DNA of 33,688 bases, from positions 1 to 33,688 of the forward strand of contig JAPPDJ010000050.1 in NCBI GenBank assembly GCA_028824555.1, in the 5' to 3' direction. Positions 1,184-8,775 of this stretch are shown in pieces (position 1 is the first letter of the stretch; every line of letters starts with the position of its first letter). The translations under genes were made by a program, and so were the position numbers. The stretch is from Gammaproteobacteria bacterium. Its GTDB lineage: Bacteria; Pseudomonadota; Gammaproteobacteria; Pseudomonadales; Azotimanducaceae. The notes beneath the pieces were generated by a model that was given only the letters and a program-made list of their open reading frames with translations, had not been told where the DNA came from and ran no database searches.

Positions 1184-3235
1184 TCAAGCCTTGCCGTAGA
1201 GCCACTCCATTTGCTGCGCATCGAGAGCGATGTCGAGCGCCTTGAGCGAGCTGCGCGTTTCCGAGAGTTGCCGCGGCCCCACCAGCGGGAAGCAGGGGAA
1301 TGGTTGGTTCAACACCCATGCGAGTGCCACGACGATGGGCTCGACGCCTCGCTCCTTGGCGAGTGCCACCGCACGTTCGCGCCTTGCGAAATTGTCCTCG
1401 GCGAACCAGCAACGGCGCATTTCCGCATCCGAAGGCTGGTTGCCGGTCAGCACCGCCGCCGCCGGCGCCTCTGCCTGCACCGCGTCGAATCGCGGCGTGA
1501 AGAACCCCCGCGCCTGGCTCGACCACGGGAAGAGCGCCATTTGCTCTGCCGCGAGCCATGCCCGGAATGAAGGCGTGGAAGCCGCAATGCAGCCAGGCCA
1601 TACCGGGTCCACCATCCGCGCGAGGCTGAAGTTGTTCGACACCGCGACGAAGGGCTTGAGGCCGCTGCGCTCGGCATAGGCATTCGCCTCCTGCACCCGC
1701 GCAAGCGACCAGTTCGATGCGCCAAACGCCGTGATGCGGCCGGCGTCGCACTCCCGGTTCAGCACATCCATCCACTCCGACACGTCCACGTCCGTGTTGT
1801 CGCGGTGCAGGAAGTAGAGGTCCACATGGTCGGTCGCCAGCCGCTCCAGCGACACGTCGAGCTGCGGTGCCACTCGACCCGGAAAGTTGGCGGGCGTGTG
1901 CGCGCCCTTGCCGATCACCACCACCTCGTCGCGCACGCCACGGTTCGCCATCCACGCGCCGAGCAGCGACTCCATCCTGCCGCCGCCGTAGATGTGTGCC
2001 GTGTCAAAGGTGTTGCCGCCCTGCTCGAAGAAGTGATCGAACATCACCGACGCATGGGCGATGTCCGGCTGGTTGTCGCAGCCCATCACAAGACGCGAGA
2101 TGGGCTTGTCGATGCCACGCACGGCGCCGTGCTGCATGGACCGCGTTTCCCCACGCGTCACCCGTAGCGGGCGGCCATGCACCGGCACGGTCTGCCGTTC
2201 GGGGCGTTCCTGATCGAACACGAGACCGATGCTGCGCCGCCACGCATCGAGGGTGCGGGCATTGCCGAGGCTGTCCGCCCAACTCATGCACGGCGACTCC
2301 GTGCCGCCGCTTGCGAGCGCTTCGGAAACCGCTTCTACCTCATGCACATAGAGCGGCGCCGAGTTGCCCGACACCGTTTCGCTTTGGCCGTCGCCACGCA
2401 CAAGTTCGAAACTCCAATCGCCGTTCTCGTCCGCACAGCGCCACGGCTCGGCAATGTGGATGGCGCCTTGGGAACCGGACACCACCACCCGGTTCTGCAA
2501 CCCCACCGTGACCGCCGTCGCCACTTGCGCGACGATGCCGGAGGGAAACCGCAACACCGCCGCGGCGCAGGCGTCGACGCCCGTTTCGGCAAACGTGGCG
2601 CTGCCTTGCACATCCACCGGCTCTTCCTCGCCCGGCGGCACCCCGGCCGCCGCTGCGGCGATCAAGCGACTCATCGACACTGGGTAGCAGCCGACATCCA
2701 TGATGCCGCCGCCGCCGAGTTCGTTGGCGTACAGGCGGCTTTGGGGCCGATACGGCGCGTTGAAGCCGAAGCTCGCCTCGATGTGCCGCACTTCGCCGAT
2801 GGCGCCGCCTTGGACGAGCTCGACGATGCGGCCCGTCATCGGATGGGCGCGGTACATGAACGCCTCCATGAGGAAGCCACCGCTCGGATCTGCCGCGTCC
2901 ACCATCGCCATCACCTGCGGATAGTTGAGGCCCATGGGCTTTTCGCAGAGCACCGCCTTGCCGGCTTCGAGCGCCTTGATGGTCCATTCCGCGTGTTGCG
3001 GGTGCGGGGGCGCGATGTAGATGGCATCGACATCGGCGTCGTCGAGCAGTTCTTGGTAGCTGCCGTGGGGCTTCGCGCCTTGCCATCTGTCGACGAATGC
3101 TTGCGCGGATTCCTTGGTGCGACTGCCAACGGCAGTGAGCGTGGCGGTGGCCGATGCCTCCACTGCACCGGCGAATGTGTGCGCGATTCGGCCCGTGGCC
3201 AGGATGCCCCAGCGAGTTTTCATTCCAGATTCCAT
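1184..3235 (-). CDS. Gfo/Idh/MocA oxidoreductase - aldo/keto reductase fusion
   Basis: One uninterrupted 683-residue frame carries two NAD(P)-dependent oxidoreductases. Residues about 5-345 are a Gfo/Idh/MocA dehydrogenase: a glycine-rich nucleotide loop at the N-terminus (WGILATGRIA), the EKP signature at E98-K99-P100 and a C-terminal substrate-binding domain. Residues about 372-683 are an aldo/keto reductase with the full catalytic tetrad: D411 and Y416 (FDTAHIYG), K443 and H477 (FLHRD). Both halves look intact, so this is likely a bifunctional enzyme acting on sugars or polyols, perhaps passing a keto intermediate between sites; that role is inference. Two starts are possible, ATG at 3235 (GGGGG five bases upstream) or ATG at 3223, where the family usually begins. 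It is transcribed away from the phytase gene. Confidence 0.9.
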   Translation of the reverse strand: MESGMKTRWGILATGRIAHTFAGAVEASATATLTAVGSRTKESAQAFVDRWQGAKPHGSYQELLDDADVDAIYIAPPHPQHAEWTIKALEAGKAVLCEKPMGLNYPQVMAMVDAADPSGGFLMEAFMYRAHPMTGRIVELVQGGAIGEVRHIEASFGFNAPYRPQSRLYANELGGGGIMDVGCYPVSMSRLIAAAAAGVPPGEEEPVDVQGSATFAETGVDACAAAVLRFPSGIVAQVATAVTVGLQNRVVVSGSQGAIHIAEPWRCADENGDWSFELVRGDGQSETVSGNSAPLYVHEVEAVSEALASGGTESPCMSWADSLGNARTLDAWRRSIGLVFDQERPERQTVPVHGRPLRVTRGETRSMQHGAVRGIDKPISRLVMGCDNQPDIAHASVMFDHFFEQGGNTFDTAHIYGGGRMESLLGAWMANRGVRDEVVVIGKGAHTPANFPGRVAPQLDVSLERLATDHVDLYFLHRDNTDVDVSEWMDVLNRECDAGRITAFGASNWSLARVQEANAYAERSGLKPFVAVSNNFSLARMVDPVWPGCIAASTPSFRAWLAAEQMALFPWSSQARGFFTPRFDAVQAEAPAAAVLTGNQPSDAEMRRCWFAEDNFARRERAVALAKERGVEPIVVALAWVLNQPFPCFPLVGPRQLSETRSSLKALDIALDAQQMEWLYGKA

Positions 3236-4451: not shown

Positions 4452-4589
4452 GCAGCCCCTGCCCCGCGAGGGCCCTTCTGGACGGAGGGCGTCCCGCCCT
4501 CCAAGCGTGCCGAAGGCGCGCACGCAGCGGAGCCGGCCAAAGCCACCGCAACCCGCGCTCCAGACAACGCCAACAAAGCGCCAGCCTCG
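4452..4589 (+). repeat. Dispersed repeat R1b, left copy flanking the operon
   Basis: About 138 bases that recur as the reverse complement at 10171-10309. Shared blocks include CAGCCCCTG, the palindrome GGAGGGCGTCCCGCCCTCC, AGCGTGCCGAAGGCGCGCAC, GCAGCGGAGC and ACAACGCCAACAAAGCGCC. The gap 4435-4686 contains this copy and the ribosome-binding site of the next gene; no separate gene is seen. Confidence 0.85.
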
Positions 4590-4686
4590 GACAACGCCAC
4601 CGACAAGCCAGCCTCTGCTTCACTTGCCCAAAGGCGGCCATCGTCGCACACTGCGGCACTTGCTCAAGGAACCTAAGGGGAGTCGC

Positions 4687-5736
4687 GTGGGGAGCACGGA
4701 CGCGGCGCAGTTGGTGTCAGCGCCGGACGATGCGTTGGCGGCCATCGACGCGTGTTTCGACAATGGCTGGACCGATGGCTTGCCGGTGGTGCCGCCGGAG
4801 CGGTCGCGGGTGGAAGCGATGCTGGCGATGGAGGGGCGACCGCCGGAGACGGTGATTGCGGCGCACCCGACCACGGGACTCGAGTGCTCGATCCTTGGCG
4901 CGGCCGCGAATGCGGTGATGGCGGGGTGTTTGCCGGAGTATTTCCCCGTCGTGGTCGCGGCGCTCGAAGCCGCCAGCGAAACGCCCTACAACTACCACGG
5001 CTCCGCGGCCAGCACCGGCGGTTCCTGCCAGATGCTGATCGTCAGCGGGCCCGTGGTGCAGGACATCGGCATGAACGCCGCCGGCAACGTCTTCGGCCCC
5101 GGCAACCGCGCCAACGCCACCATCGGTCGGGCCATGCGGCTGGTGCTCCTGAACGTCTTTCGCATGACGCCGGGCATCGCCGACCAATCCACCCAAGGCC
5201 ACCCCGGCAAACACACGATGTGCATCGCCGAACGGTCCGAGCGCAACCCGTGGATGCCGCTGCACGAGGAATTCGGCTACGGCCCGGACATCTCCAGCGT
5301 CACGGTCTATGCCGGCGCTGGCTTCTGCAACGTCGAGAACCACGGCGGCAACACGCCGGAATCCATCCTCGACTCGGTGGCAGACTCGATGGCCAATCTT
5401 GGCTGCATCACCGCCGGCGAGTCCGTGGTAGTGCTGTCACCGGAACACGCCGAGATCGTCGCAAGCACCGGCTGGAGCAAGGCGGATGCGCGCGAATACC
5501 TCTTCGAGCAGGCGCGCCAGCCGGTGGCCGAAATGCAGCGGGTGATGAAGTTCGTGCCACGAGAGTACGAGCACCAGGGGCGGGAAGACATGCACCGCGG
5601 CTACAGCGCGGACGACATCCTGATCACGGTTGCCGGCGGCGACGCCGGCGGCCACTCGGCCTTCATCCCTTCCTGGAGCCGAGGCCGCGGCTCGCTGATG
5701 CAGACCAAGCCCATTGGCGTCTGCATCGACTGTTAG
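4687..5736 (+). CDS. Conserved protein paired with UGSC selenoprotein, C-terminal CXXC
   Basis: A 349-residue protein of unrecognised function. Its frame is open 180 bases further upstream, but that part is translated repeat R1b; the GTG at 4687 has AAGGGGAG (4675-4682) just before it, and typical protein sequence begins there. It looks soluble, with no signal peptide. Notable segments are DNGWTDGLPVVPP near residue 30, a Gly/Ala/Asn-rich core (ASTGGSCQ, NVFGPGNRANATIGRAMR) and many cysteines. The chain ends in GVCIDC, a CXXC at residues 346-349, as seen for redox tails in other families. It is the first gene of a five-gene operon and lies 70 bases ahead of the selenoprotein. From memory such proteins accompany UGSC proteins, so I infer a shared thiol/selenol-redox process; no reaction can be named. 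Confidence 0.75.
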   Translation: MGSTDAAQLVSAPDDALAAIDACFDNGWTDGLPVVPPERSRVEAMLAMEGRPPETVIAAHPTTGLECSILGAAANAVMAGCLPEYFPVVVAALEAASETPYNYHGSAASTGGSCQMLIVSGPVVQDIGMNAAGNVFGPGNRANATIGRAMRLVLLNVFRMTPGIADQSTQGHPGKHTMCIAERSERNPWMPLHEEFGYGPDISSVTVYAGAGFCNVENHGGNTPESILDSVADSMANLGCITAGESVVVLSPEHAEIVASTGWSKADAREYLFEQARQPVAEMQRVMKFVPREYEHQGREDMHRGYSADDILITVAGGDAGGHSAFIPSWSRGRGSLMQTKPIGVCIDC

Positions 5737-5806
5737 TAGGGGAGTCCGCGGGCGAATCGGCTCGCGGCCGACCCGCAACCGATCTTGTAAACGAGAGGAG
5801 AAGACG

Positions 5807-6427
5807 ATGATCCAGATGGTGGACCCCGCCGGCACCGGCGGCGGCCAGAAACGCAGCATGGCGCCGAGGCTCGCGGAGCTCTCCCGCCTGAAAGTCGGAC
5901 TCTTGTCGAACGGCAAGGCCAATGCCGACGCGCTCTTGCACGAGACCGCCGCGCACTTCGAGCAGGGCCTCGGCTGTTCGGTGACGCAGTTGCTCGACAA
6001 GCTGAACGCCAGTCGCCCGGCACCGCCGGACTTCCTTGCCGAACTCGCCGCCGAGTCGGATTTCCTCATCACGGCGGTGGGGGATTGAGGGAGTTGCTCA
6101 ACGTGCAGTGTGCATGACGGCATCTCCTTCGAACAGCTCGGCAAACCGGCGCTGGTGATCTGCACCCATCCGTTCGAACTCACCGGGCGCAACATCGCCC
6201 GCACCCTCGGCGTGCCGGACTATCCGTTCGCCATGGTGGACCACCCCATCGGCAGCCGCACGCCGCCCGAAATCCGCGTTCGCGCGGCCGACGCCTTCGC
6301 CCAAGGGCAGCGAATCCTCACCGGCGGAGCCTTCAGCCCAGGGGAGCGCGAGGGGCCGCCCCTCGCTAGAGGAGCCTTCAGCCCAGGGGAGCGCGAGGGG
6401 CCGCCCCTCGCTAGAGGAGCGCCGTGA
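5807..6427 (+). CDS. UGSC family selenoprotein (in-frame UGA = Sec94)
   Basis: A standard reading stops at the TGA at 6086-6088, but the same frame continues without interruption to a stop at 6425-6427. Across the TGA the sequence reads AVGD-U-GSCSTCSVHDGI, the signature of the UGSC (seleno)protein family, where the residue is selenocysteine or cysteine. With Sec the product is 206 residues, U94 being the first residue of a UXXC redox-type motif (U94-G-S-C97) followed by C100. Start: ATG 5807 with AGGAG six bases upstream. Residues about 174-204 are two copies of a 15-residue repeat (GAFSPGEREGPPLAR) encoded by repeat R3, an addition not expected in the family. The function is unknown; a redox role is inferred from UXXC. 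Selenoprotein synthesis needs SelA/B/C/D, which must be encoded elsewhere. Its stop overlaps the hydrolase start (GTGA). Confidence 0.9.
6089..6116 (+). promoter_or_regulatory. Candidate bacterial SECIS hairpin
   Basis: Directly after the Sec codon, CGTGCA (6102-6107) and TGCATG (6111-6116) can pair as a six-base-pair stem with one G-T wobble around the loop GTG (6108-6110). The loop begins 19 bases after the UGA and starts with G, matching the general description of bacterial SECIS elements (a small apical loop with G in its first positions, about 16-37 bases after UGA). The stem is short, so confidence is moderate. Confidence 0.55.
6326..6419 (+). repeat. Repeat R3 short form, two 45-bp units
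   Basis: Two identical 45-bp units at 6326-6370 and 6371-6415 plus the start of a third. Each holds the hairpin GCGAGGGG / CCCCTCGC with a CCG loop. They encode the C-terminus of the selenoprotein in frame. Their junction sequence CTAGAGGAG also supplies the Shine-Dalgarno site (AGAGGAG, 6413-6419) of the hydrolase start at 6424. Confidence 0.9.
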
Positions 6428-8775
6428 CGGTTGAGTCGTTCGAGGTAACCGAGCACGGGCCCTATGCCGGCGGCCGACTGTTCGGCGACTTCGGCCCGTT
6501 CGAGATCAGCCATGGCCGCGTGCACTATGCGGTGGACCCCGAGTCGGCACGCAACGCCGCCGTGGTCGATCTCGCCCGTGCACCTCGGGACGACGACGGC
6601 AAGGTTCGCTTTCACGGCGATTTCACCTTCATCCGCACCGTCGCCGGAGGTGCCGGCAAACCAGCGCCCACTCTCCTGATCGACGTTCCGAACCGTGGCC
6701 GGCGCCTGTCGTTCTCGATGTTCAACCGGGCAAGGCCAGACGACCTCCTCGCCGATCCCTGTGCGCCCGGCGACGGCTTCCTGTTCGAACGCGGCTTCGC
6801 ACTCGCGTCCATCGGCTGGCAATGGGGCGTCGCCGCCGGCCTCGGCCTTGCGCCGCCCGAGGCGCTGGTGGATGGCGCTCCGGTCACGGGCGACGTGGTC
6901 TGTCGCGTGCAGCCGGGCTCGAACCGCCCGTTCGTCTCGTTCGGCCAACTTGGCGAGGTGGCTTATCCGCCGGCGAGCTCCTCTAGCGACCGGCTGTTTG
7001 AGCGCGCCCATGACAACGCGCCGCAGGTGCAACTGCCGCGAAGCGCCTGGCGCTTTGCCCGAATCCGCGAGGGGAAGCTGACGCCGAGTGCCAAGCACAT
7101 CCACCTCGACGGGGGCTTTCGCGCTGGTCGCATCTACACCCTGGTCTATCGCGCCCGCGGCGCACCGATAGTGGGCTGCGGCCTGCTGGCGCTGCGCGAC
7201 GCCGCCGCCGCGCTACGTCGAGGAGCCTTCAGCGTGGGGGAGCGCGAGGGGCTTCCCCTCGCTAGAGGAGCCTTCAGCCTAGGCGACCAGAAGTTCCGCG
7301 AAAGCGGAACTTCCAACGCGCCCGCGAGGGCGCGCGAGCGCGAGGGGCTTCCCCTCGCTAGAGGAGCCTTCAGCCTAGGCGACCAGAAGTTCCGCGAAAG
7401 CGGAACTTCCAACGCGCCCGCGAGGGCGCGCGAGCGCGAGGGGCTTCCCCTCGCTAGAGGAGCCTTCAGCCTAGGCGACCAGAAGTTCCGCGAAAGCGGA
7501 ACTTCCAACGCGCCCGCGAGGGCACGCGAGCGCGAGGGGCTTCCCCTCGCTAGAGGAGCCTTCAGCGTGAGCGACCAGAAGTTCCGCGCCAGCGGAACTT
7601 CCAACGCGCCCGCAAGGGCGCGCGAGCGGGAGGGGCTTCCCCTCGCTAGAGGAGCCTTCAGCGAAGGAAATCCCACAAACGACGGCTTCGACCGCGTTCT
7701 GGCCTTCGGCGCCTCGCAGACGGGGCGCGTGCTGCGCCATCTCCTGCACGCGGGACTCAACGTCAGCGAAGACGGCGAAGCCGTGTTCGACGGCGTCCAT
7801 GCCCACATCGCCGGTGGGCAGCGTGGCGACTTCAACCACCGTTTTGCACAACCCTCGGCCGCCGGCGTACCGGGTCCGGGCCAGCGGTTCCCCTTCGCCG
7901 GCGTCCGCCAAGCCGACCCCATCGGCGGCACGACCGACGGCCTCTACGAGCATCTGGAACACATGCCGAAGGTGATGCTCACCAACACTTCGTGGGAATA
8001 CTGGCGCGGCGACGCGGCGCTGACCCACGTCTCCCCCGATGGCCAGCACGACCTCGCGAGCCACCCCGACGAGCGCAACTACCTGTTCGCAGGAACCCAG
8101 CACACGAACGGCACGCTGCCGCGCACCGACACGTTTGCCGTCAGCGGCGAGCGGGCACGCTACCCGTTCAACGTGGTCGATCACGGCCCCCTCGTGCGCG
8201 CGGCCCTCGTCAACCTCGAGCGCTGGAGCCGCGGCATTGCGCCGCCGGAGTCCCGCGTGCCGACGCTCGGTGCAGGCACGTTGGTGGAACGGGGCTCCGT
8301 GCTCGCCAAGTTCGCTCGGCAAGCGGGCCTCGCCACCCTCGATGCGGGCGAGCTCGGCGGTCTCGCGCATGTGCAACTCGGCGCGGCCGTGGCCGAGGGC
8401 ATCTGCACCTTCCCCGCCGTCGAGTCCGCCGCCTATGCGCGACTCGTCGCCGATGTGAACGACACCCTCAACGAGGTGGCCGGCATCCGCCTGCCAGACA
8501 TTGAGGTGCCGCTCGGCTGCCACACCGGCTGGAATCCACGGCATCCGGATCACGGTGCGCCGATGCAGGCCGCCATGTTCGTCGGCTTCTCCCTGTTTCG
8601 GCCCATCGAGCTCTCGCGCGCGACGTACGAGACGCGCGTGCGCAAGGTGGCGGAGCGCCTCGCTCGGCAGCGCTACCTGCTTGAGGATGATGTCGATCTA
8701 GTGGTGGCGAACAGCCTCCGCCGCTATGACATCGCCGCCAAGACCCCGGCGGACTTGCCCTCGATGACTGCATGA
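6424..8775 (+). CDS. Alpha/beta hydrolase domain protein with in-frame repeat insert
   Basis: A 783-residue protein whose flanks match the large alpha/beta hydrolase family Abhydrolase_10 (PF20091). Evidence includes the nucleophile elbow GASQTG with S431, followed by RVLRHLLHAGLN and FDGVHAHIAGG, and late blocks such as PLGCHTGWNPRHP. Substrates of the family are mostly unknown; esters are a reasonable guess. Residues about 267-413 are foreign: one 15-residue and four 32-residue repeat units encoded by repeat R3. They are inserted in the linker between the strand ending VGCGLLALRDAAA and the strand before the nucleophile elbow. The frame is kept and all units lack stops; without them the protein would be about 636 residues, a normal family size. 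It starts at GTG 6424, overlapping the selenoprotein stop (GTGA), and ends overlapping the glycosyltransferase start (ATGA), so translation is probably coupled. Whether the repeat-bearing protein folds is open. Confidence 0.88.
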   Translation: MTVESFEVTEHGPYAGGRLFGDFGPFEISHGRVHYAVDPESARNAAVVDLARAPRDDDGKVRFHGDFTFIRTVAGGAGKPAPTLLIDVPNRGRRLSFSMFNRARPDDLLADPCAPGDGFLFERGFALASIGWQWGVAAGLGLAPPEALVDGAPVTGDVVCRVQPGSNRPFVSFGQLGEVAYPPASSSSDRLFERAHDNAPQVQLPRSAWRFARIREGKLTPSAKHIHLDGGFRAGRIYTLVYRARGAPIVGCGLLALRDAAAALRRGAFSVGEREGLPLARGAFSLGDQKFRESGTSNAPARAREREGLPLARGAFSLGDQKFRESGTSNAPARAREREGLPLARGAFSLGDQKFRESGTSNAPARAREREGLPLARGAFSVSDQKFRASGTSNAPARAREREGLPLARGAFSEGNPTNDGFDRVLAFGASQTGRVLRHLLHAGLNVSEDGEAVFDGVHAHIAGGQRGDFNHRFAQPSAAGVPGPGQRFPFAGVRQADPIGGTTDGLYEHLEHMPKVMLTNTSWEYWRGDAALTHVSPDGQHDLASHPDERNYLFAGTQHTNGTLPRTDTFAVSGERARYPFNVVDHGPLVRAALVNLERWSRGIAPPESRVPTLGAGTLVERGSVLAKFARQAGLATLDAGELGGLAHVQLGAAVAEGICTFPAVESAAYARLVADVNDTLNEVAGIRLPDIEVPLGCHTGWNPRHPDHGAPMQAAMFVGFSLFRPIELSRATYETRVRKVAERLARQRYLLEDDVDLVVANSLRRYDIAAKTPADLPSMTA
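7222..7662 (+). repeat. Tandem repeat R3: one 45-bp and four 96-bp units inside a gene
   Basis: The unit start GGAGCCTTCAGC occurs at 7222, 7267, 7363, 7459, 7555 and 7651. The first interval is 45 bases and the next four are exactly 96. Units 1 and 2 are identical, unit 3 differs at one base and unit 4 at several. Each 96-bp unit contains three hairpins in order: A, a 10-bp stem GAAGTTCCGC closed by GAAA (for example 7290-7313); B, CGCGCCC / GGGCGCG closed by GCGA; C, CGAGGGG / CCCCTCG closed by CTT. All lengths are multiples of three and both strands are open. Confidence 0.97.

Follow-up and report, generated by a model that had tools for sequence, protein, structure and literature searches.

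The stretch of DNA analysed here, called the window, comprises all 33,688 nucleotides of contig JAPPDJ010000050.1 (assembly GCA_028824555.1), from a gammaproteobacterium of the family Azotimanducaceae. It carries a gene of the UGSC family with an in-frame TGA, predicted to encode selenocysteine (Sec), and upstream of it a gene that we call the partner (Table 1). An earlier note on this DNA had proposed that one continuous frame with the UGSC signature crosses the TGA and that an ordinary gene caller would split the gene. In this study, we found that the frame runs from the ATG at 5807 to the TGA at 6425-6427 with a single internal TGA, at residue 94, and the translation across it reads GDUGSCSTCSVHDG. 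Mechanical calling of open reading frames (ORFs) did cut the gene in two (5714-6088 and 6110-6427). A sequence resembling a ribosome-binding site, AGGAG, was seen by eye at 5796-5800. The joined protein matched PF24696, the UGSC family of Pfam, with 164.6 bits (cut-off 25, E 3e-48) over residues 4-172. The match to NF041046 (UGSC_fam of NCBIfam) reached 124.7 bits, marginally below the cut-off of 125. As the PF24696 match of the joined frame spans the TGA, the downstream part belongs to UGSC, a point on which the earlier note had made its proposal depend. These results indicate that the product of 5807-6427 is, by its sequence, a new member of the known UGSC family, with which it shares the whole conserved domain, the UGSC motif and the alternation of Sec and Cys.

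Table 1. Features of the UGSC locus, in window coordinates
Feature	Position	Strand	Remarks
Partner gene	4507..5736	+	conserved domain of ~360 residues from ~4678; start codon uncertain; fused to UGSC in paralogues
UGSC-family selenoprotein gene	5807..6427	+	206 residues, Sec at residue 94; conserved domain ~5816-6322
Internal TGA, predicted Sec codon	6086..6088	+	opens the U-G-S-C-S-T-C (UxxCxxC) motif
Candidate hairpin resembling a Sec insertion sequence (SECIS), starting at the UGA	6086..6131	+	apical stem of bases 17-22 / 26-31 from the T of the TGA; GU opens the loop
C-terminal tail of the protein, built from a dispersed 45-bp repeat present twice and in frame	6326..6427	+	copies at 6326-6370 and 6371-6415
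Next gene, PF20091 alpha/beta hydrolase with in-frame repeats	6424..8775	+	overlaps the UGSC stop by 4 bases

Decoding of the internal TGA

The host genome is 96% complete in 182 contigs. A search for selA, selB, selC and selD, which the earlier note had recommended, found all four above cut-off: selA at 515.8, selB at 382.6, tRNA-Sec at 67.1 and selD at 243.7 bits. The genes for selA, selB and tRNA-Sec share one contig. The host has three UGSC genes with one TGA in each. The family was present in 25 of the 38 genomes searched (host and relatives), and exactly one TGA was found in 54 of the 59 UGSC match rows. One row had two TGAs and four had none, three of these four being fragments. Cys forms of UGSC were found at 35 loci in named genomes, including Sphingobium, Bordetella, Advenella, Natrialba, Natrinema, Conexibacter and Streptomyces, by a scan with the single pattern [GAC][DH]CGSC..., which detects close Cys forms only. 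In an alignment of 51 rows, position 94 was always U or C and position 97 always Cys. Homologues with Cys align at the UGA column, a point that the earlier note had asked to be checked.

The coding sequence on both sides of the TGA was compared with that of 10 relatives. The ratio of nonsynonymous to synonymous substitution rates (dN/dS) was ~0.16-0.56 upstream of the TGA and 0.02-0.39 downstream (NG86; rough, as some dS values exceed 1). In 10 of 10 comparisons the part downstream of the TGA had the lower dN. A tree of 81 sequences required 6 changes of the U or C label, at least 4 of them forced by well-supported branches; many branches of this tree are long and its deep part is uncertain.

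The 60 bases starting at the internal TGA fold with -22.7 kcal/mol (z -2.44), and 5 of 200 shuffled sequences folded equally well. Mean folding z was -1.22 in 40 TGA sequences against 0.02 in 33 Cys sequences (p 1.3e-6). This comparison began with 85 rows and was reduced to 73; five lacked the motif pattern, and the others were duplicates or too short. The apical stem was paired at 89% in TGA and 66% in Cys sequences, and GU opened the loop in 31 of the 40 TGA sequences.

From the joined-frame match, the complete set of sel genes, the rows with one TGA, the Cys at the same column, the hairpin and the selection after the TGA, computation supports a Sec codon: the UGA at 6086-6088 is almost certainly read as Sec by the host's own SelB and tRNA-Sec system, probably aided by the downstream hairpin. 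A chance ORF or read-through of a pseudogene was ruled out by the PF24696 match, the pattern of one TGA in relatives and the selection after the TGA. Genome-wide reassignment of TGA was judged unlikely because the UGSC gene itself ends on TGA, although the raw folding energies at the internal and the terminal TGA do not distinguish the two codons. A 3.5-Mb genome of the same class (G369) holds nine UGSC genes with one TGA each (L061, L065, L067-L073), and several of them have the motif USS or UST in place of UGS.

The partner gene and its linkage to UGSC

The product of the partner gene (4507-5736) matched nothing in Pfam or NCBIfam at E<=10, a search in which the HMMER filters discard most very weak matches. 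We investigated its linkage to UGSC with a profile of the partner. The profile was found near UGSC, upstream or downstream, in 34 of the 35 Cys loci on contigs of named genomes. Among 48 whole-genome locus rows the partner was near UGSC in 47, corresponding to 44 of 45 distinct places. These 48 rows represent the best UGSC matches only, not all 59 rows, and one of them (L057) has a partner truncated at an end. Twenty larger regions, 18 from relatives and 2 from the host genome, contained UGSC in 20 cases and the partner in 19. The partner of one locus (L165) was missed by ORF picking in the neighbourhood clustering and found by a later profile check. Among 369 genomes drawn evenly from the class, host included, those with UGSC and those with the partner were the same 6, up to five partner candidates being scored per genome.

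UGSC and the partner were fused in a single open frame, UGSC first, in 14 distinct loci (L003, L058, L061-L063, L065, L067-L073 and L102), including the host's third paralogue (L003). Fusions were flagged in frames with all TGAs read through, and 19 of the 25 flagged rows had no TGA between the domains. The count leaves out the duplicate L066 as well as L037, L057, L097 and L098, which have a TGA within the partner stretch; L058 was kept, its frame being open to the end. A fusion of UGSC with a domain named Unknown_1 is already reported in the UGSC passages of PMC2398784, and Unknown_1 is probably this partner domain. Doubled arrangements were also seen (L084, L097, L098), with the order partner-UGSC-UGSC-partner in Conexibacter and partner-UGSC-partner in Natronomonas.

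The predicted model of the partner had a mean predicted local distance difference test score (pLDDT) of 87.5. Against the sequences of solved structures the partner gave weak rows only, the best at E 1.1 with the sequence alone and 0.49 with the profile. A fold like that of fumarase or cyclic amide hydrolase was considered and rejected: the best Foldseek E was 2.9e-4, yet the template modelling (TM) score was 0.26 and the root mean square deviation 12.9. Because of the linkage, the fusion and the co-occurrence, all supported by computation, we strongly infer that UGSC and the product of the upstream gene are two subunits of one enzyme.

Predicted fold, probable kinship and proposed chemistry

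The UGSC protein was modelled with a mean pLDDT of 96.2 and a predicted TM score of 0.90. Five beta-strands alternate with helices in the model, in an order like that of flavodoxin, and residue 94 directly precedes the helix of residues 95-109. The best Foldseek matches were weak, with names mostly of flavodoxin-like or Rossmann-like kinds, and no thioredoxin was among the 50 matches listed. The UGSC passages of PMC2398784 term the fold 'likely' thioredoxin-like. The model and the Foldseek matches speak against this, and a thioredoxin fold was rejected for UGSC: it has UxxC in common with the thioredoxin-fold selenoproteins, whereas its model is flavodoxin-like.

A profile-profile comparison of UGSC with proteins of the PF07355 type, the family of the selenoproteins GrdB (glycine reductase B) and PrdB (D-proline reductase), gave an hhalign probability of 80.6% and a score of 42.2 with the Sec columns aligned. 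The E..GIPTV and HPIG-like segments downstream of the Sec column were aligned as well. In controls, the highest score was 19.9 over 150 column shuffles and 24.3 over ten unrelated families. The PF07355-type proteins were fetched from the host and other genomes, and 9 of 31 loci were left out, their motif being unseen by the pattern. Both groups have a Sec or Cys column followed by xxC, and the UxxCxxC of the window protein is also given for GrdB in the part of PMC13188914 that deals with it. UGSC differs from PF07355 proteins in having UGSC instead of UPVC, UPAC or UPLC, in its different, undescribed partner and in the absence of a PF07355 score. These results suggest that UGSC, judged by sequence comparison, is probably a distant relative of GrdB and PrdB rather than a PF07355 member. 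PF09338, the pyruvoyl subunit GrdE/PrdA, had 0 matches in 24 genomes, but the control was likewise silent. The window UGSC alone matched the ORF169b chain (E 0.01, residues 48-107), and PF21435 appeared at E 0.032, below cut-off, in 2 of 11 UGSC members. These matches were taken as chance because the UGSC profile, which had no match among the sequences of solved structures, does not repeat them. Three genes of the PF07355 type in the host genome also contain an in-frame TGA, with the motifs UPVC, UPAC and UPLC (L110, L115 and L116, on contigs C173, C27 and C124). Together with the three UGSC genes, this brings the selenoprotein genes of the probable superfamily in the host to at least six.

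In D-proline reductase, according to the passages of PMC3091704 on this enzyme, a pyruvoyl subunit binds proline, and Sec could attack the alpha carbon to form a selenoether that is cut by Cys, followed by re-reduction. The same source describes glycine reduction as fed via thioredoxin reductase and thioredoxin. By analogy with the D-proline reductase scheme, we propose that UGSC works like PrdB. The partner would bind and present a small electrophilic substrate, probably of the carboxylate type, and the selenolate of Sec94, placed at a helix N-terminus, would attack it. The carbon-heteroatom bond would then be cleaved reductively. Cys97 may resolve the Se adduct to a selenenylsulfide, closing the UxxC pair, and thioredoxin or thioredoxin reductase could reduce this and reset UGSC. 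In the part of PMC10838667 consulted on GrdB-like proteins, C-F cleavage is proposed for them. The explanation as a whole, with a Sec-decoded UGSC, a two-protein enzyme with the partner and PrdB-like chemistry down to these steps, is held tentatively, and we rate it slightly below an even chance. A further claim would be that UGSC and the partner form a distinct class of two-subunit enzymes for reductive cleavage, dependent on Sec or Cys and occurring in bacteria and haloarchaea, with GrdB/PrdB ancestry and an undescribed substrate-binding subunit replacing the pyruvoyl subunit. We regard this claim as doubtful.

In aquatic metagenomes UGSC ranks with the most common selenoprotein families, with 255 sequences in the account of PMC2398784, and it makes up 8.2% of selenoprotein genes in the figure given by PMC9402790. 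If true, the distinct two-subunit class would account for an orphan family that is one of the most abundant of its kind among the selenoproteins of these metagenomes. The UGSC passages of the literature found, in a search that left subscription journals mostly outside, state no function for UGSC and no kinship to GrdB or PrdB. The UGSC family itself is already known; what is added here is the partner, the probable GrdB/PrdB kinship, the flavodoxin-like model and the recurring CoA-transferase and thioredoxin reductase neighbours. The finding is of value because of the partner and the probable link to GrdB/PrdB, which render the orphan family testable. With a near-constant partner, a likely electron donor and named genomes that carry a selenium-free form (among them Sphingobium, Advenella, Natrialba and Conexibacter), the proteins could be purified and assayed without selenium.

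Neighbouring genes and alternative readings

The neighbours of the 35 Cys loci were counted in flanks of up to 8 kb, in single-linkage clusters typed by a few members. A cluster of coenzyme A (CoA) transferase III was found at 16 of the 35 loci, and CoA_transf_3 of Pfam in 12 of 72 scanned neighbours. A thioredoxin reductase cluster was found at 6 of the 35, in Bordetella/Advenella and two actinomycete lineages. Three of these reductases were checked, and all matched thioredoxin reductase in NCBIfam, two above cut-off. Clusters of acyl-CoA dehydrogenase and AMP-ligase (both typed via window members) and of an apparent enoyl-CoA hydratase (by eye) were also near the Cys loci. The neighbourhood therefore reads as CoA-ester catabolism rather than stress response. 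The PF07355-type Cys genes of two loci (L112, L114) are followed by an apparent CaiB-type CoA-transferase frame (by eye), which is also a neighbour type of UGSC. The earlier note had presented the operon as a lead. This held for the partner and, in 6 of the 20 regions (L154, L155, L156, L159, L161 and L162, loci of the genus or family), for aldo/keto reductase genes near the type-A UGSC pair, which are typed by Pfam in the window at 1184-3235. It did not extend downstream: the hydrolase, the TIGR04283 glycosyltransferase and DUF2064 had no clustered counterpart in the 20 fetched regions, and these genes were dropped as parts of a conserved UGSC system.

Several results weigh against a Sec-decoded, PrdB-like enzyme of UGSC and the partner. 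A member of the same genus (G013) has a type-A UGSC gene on one contig (L035/L153) with no partner in a 17-kb region. An uncultured Methanobrevibacter has a UGSC-like Cys protein without the partner in a 12-kb locus (L107). The partner fold had no confident structural match, and the viral structure library gave nothing at E<=0.001. The third Cys of the motif (C100) varies among the 51 aligned rows. The hhalign signal between UGSC and PF07355 is well below certainty and fell to 23.7% with Cys-type UGSC alone, and HMMER found no PF07355 match in the 11 UGSC members scanned (E<=10). Thioredoxin reductase is near a minority of the Cys loci. The wider neighbourhood largely differs within genus and family, and therefore no substrate is indicated. 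Raw folding energy did not differ between TGA and Cys sequences (p 0.49), and the 60 bases at the terminal TGA reached -21.6 kcal/mol, nearly the raw energy at the internal TGA (no z-score was taken there). As the raw energies fail to separate the groups, it is the z-scores and the apical stem that carry the case for the hairpin. The 48 whole-genome locus rows and the 20 regions contain no case without a partner other than L035/L153. In L107 an archaeal lysyl-tRNA synthetase gene precedes the UGSC-like gene.

UxxC is a generic redox motif. UGSC could thus be a selenoprotein that acts as a general thiol-disulfide or peroxide-reducing protein without carbon-heteroatom chemistry, with the partner as a dedicated client or scaffold. 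Both ends of UxxC are invariant in the 51 rows, the thioredoxin reductase neighbours fit such a protein equally well, and the 'likely' thioredoxin-like fold of PMC2398784 would agree with it, as would a peroxidase activity of GrdB itself, reported in the title of a reference in PMC3091704. However, the model is flavodoxin-like, with the list of 50 Foldseek matches free of thioredoxins, and a general antioxidant would hardly need a partner of ~360 residues in nearly all genomes. The gene context also reads more like CoA-ester catabolism than like a stress response. We consider this reading possible but rather unlikely. The same CoA-ester genes, above all the CoA-transferase III cluster together with acyl-CoA dehydrogenase, AMP-ligase and the apparent enoyl-CoA hydratase, would suit an enzyme of CoA-ester or carboxylic-acid catabolism in which the Sec or Cys of UGSC is a nucleophile forming an acyl or thioester bond and not a reductant. 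This is less probable still and appears quite unlikely, as the second Cys of UxxC is as invariant as the first position, suggesting a redox pair, and thioredoxin reductase occurs near some of the loci.

The TGA might also be a true stop or mark a broken gene, leaving a protein of 93 residues with an unrelated ORF downstream. The terminal stop of the same gene is also TGA, and the sequence after it folds nearly as well in raw energy. However, one TGA recurs in nearly all match rows from 25 genomes, with Cys at that column elsewhere, and selection continues after the TGA in a genome with the full Sec machinery. The downstream hairpin is also stronger by z-score in TGA than in Cys sequences. A true stop is therefore very improbable, and Sec decoding of the TGA is preferred.

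The window protein differs from the rest of the UGSC family in its added 33-residue C-terminal tail. The final 33 codons (6326-6424) derive from a 45-bp dispersed repeat and not from UGSC family sequence. The repeat is GC-rich with the core CCCCTCGCTAGAGGAGCCTTCAGC, and it was found at 21 places of the genome with up to 2 mismatches and at 0 in a reversed control. Five further copies with 96-bp spacing lie inside the ORF of the next gene (window 7222-7710). The dispersed repeat is thus one that invades coding sequence.
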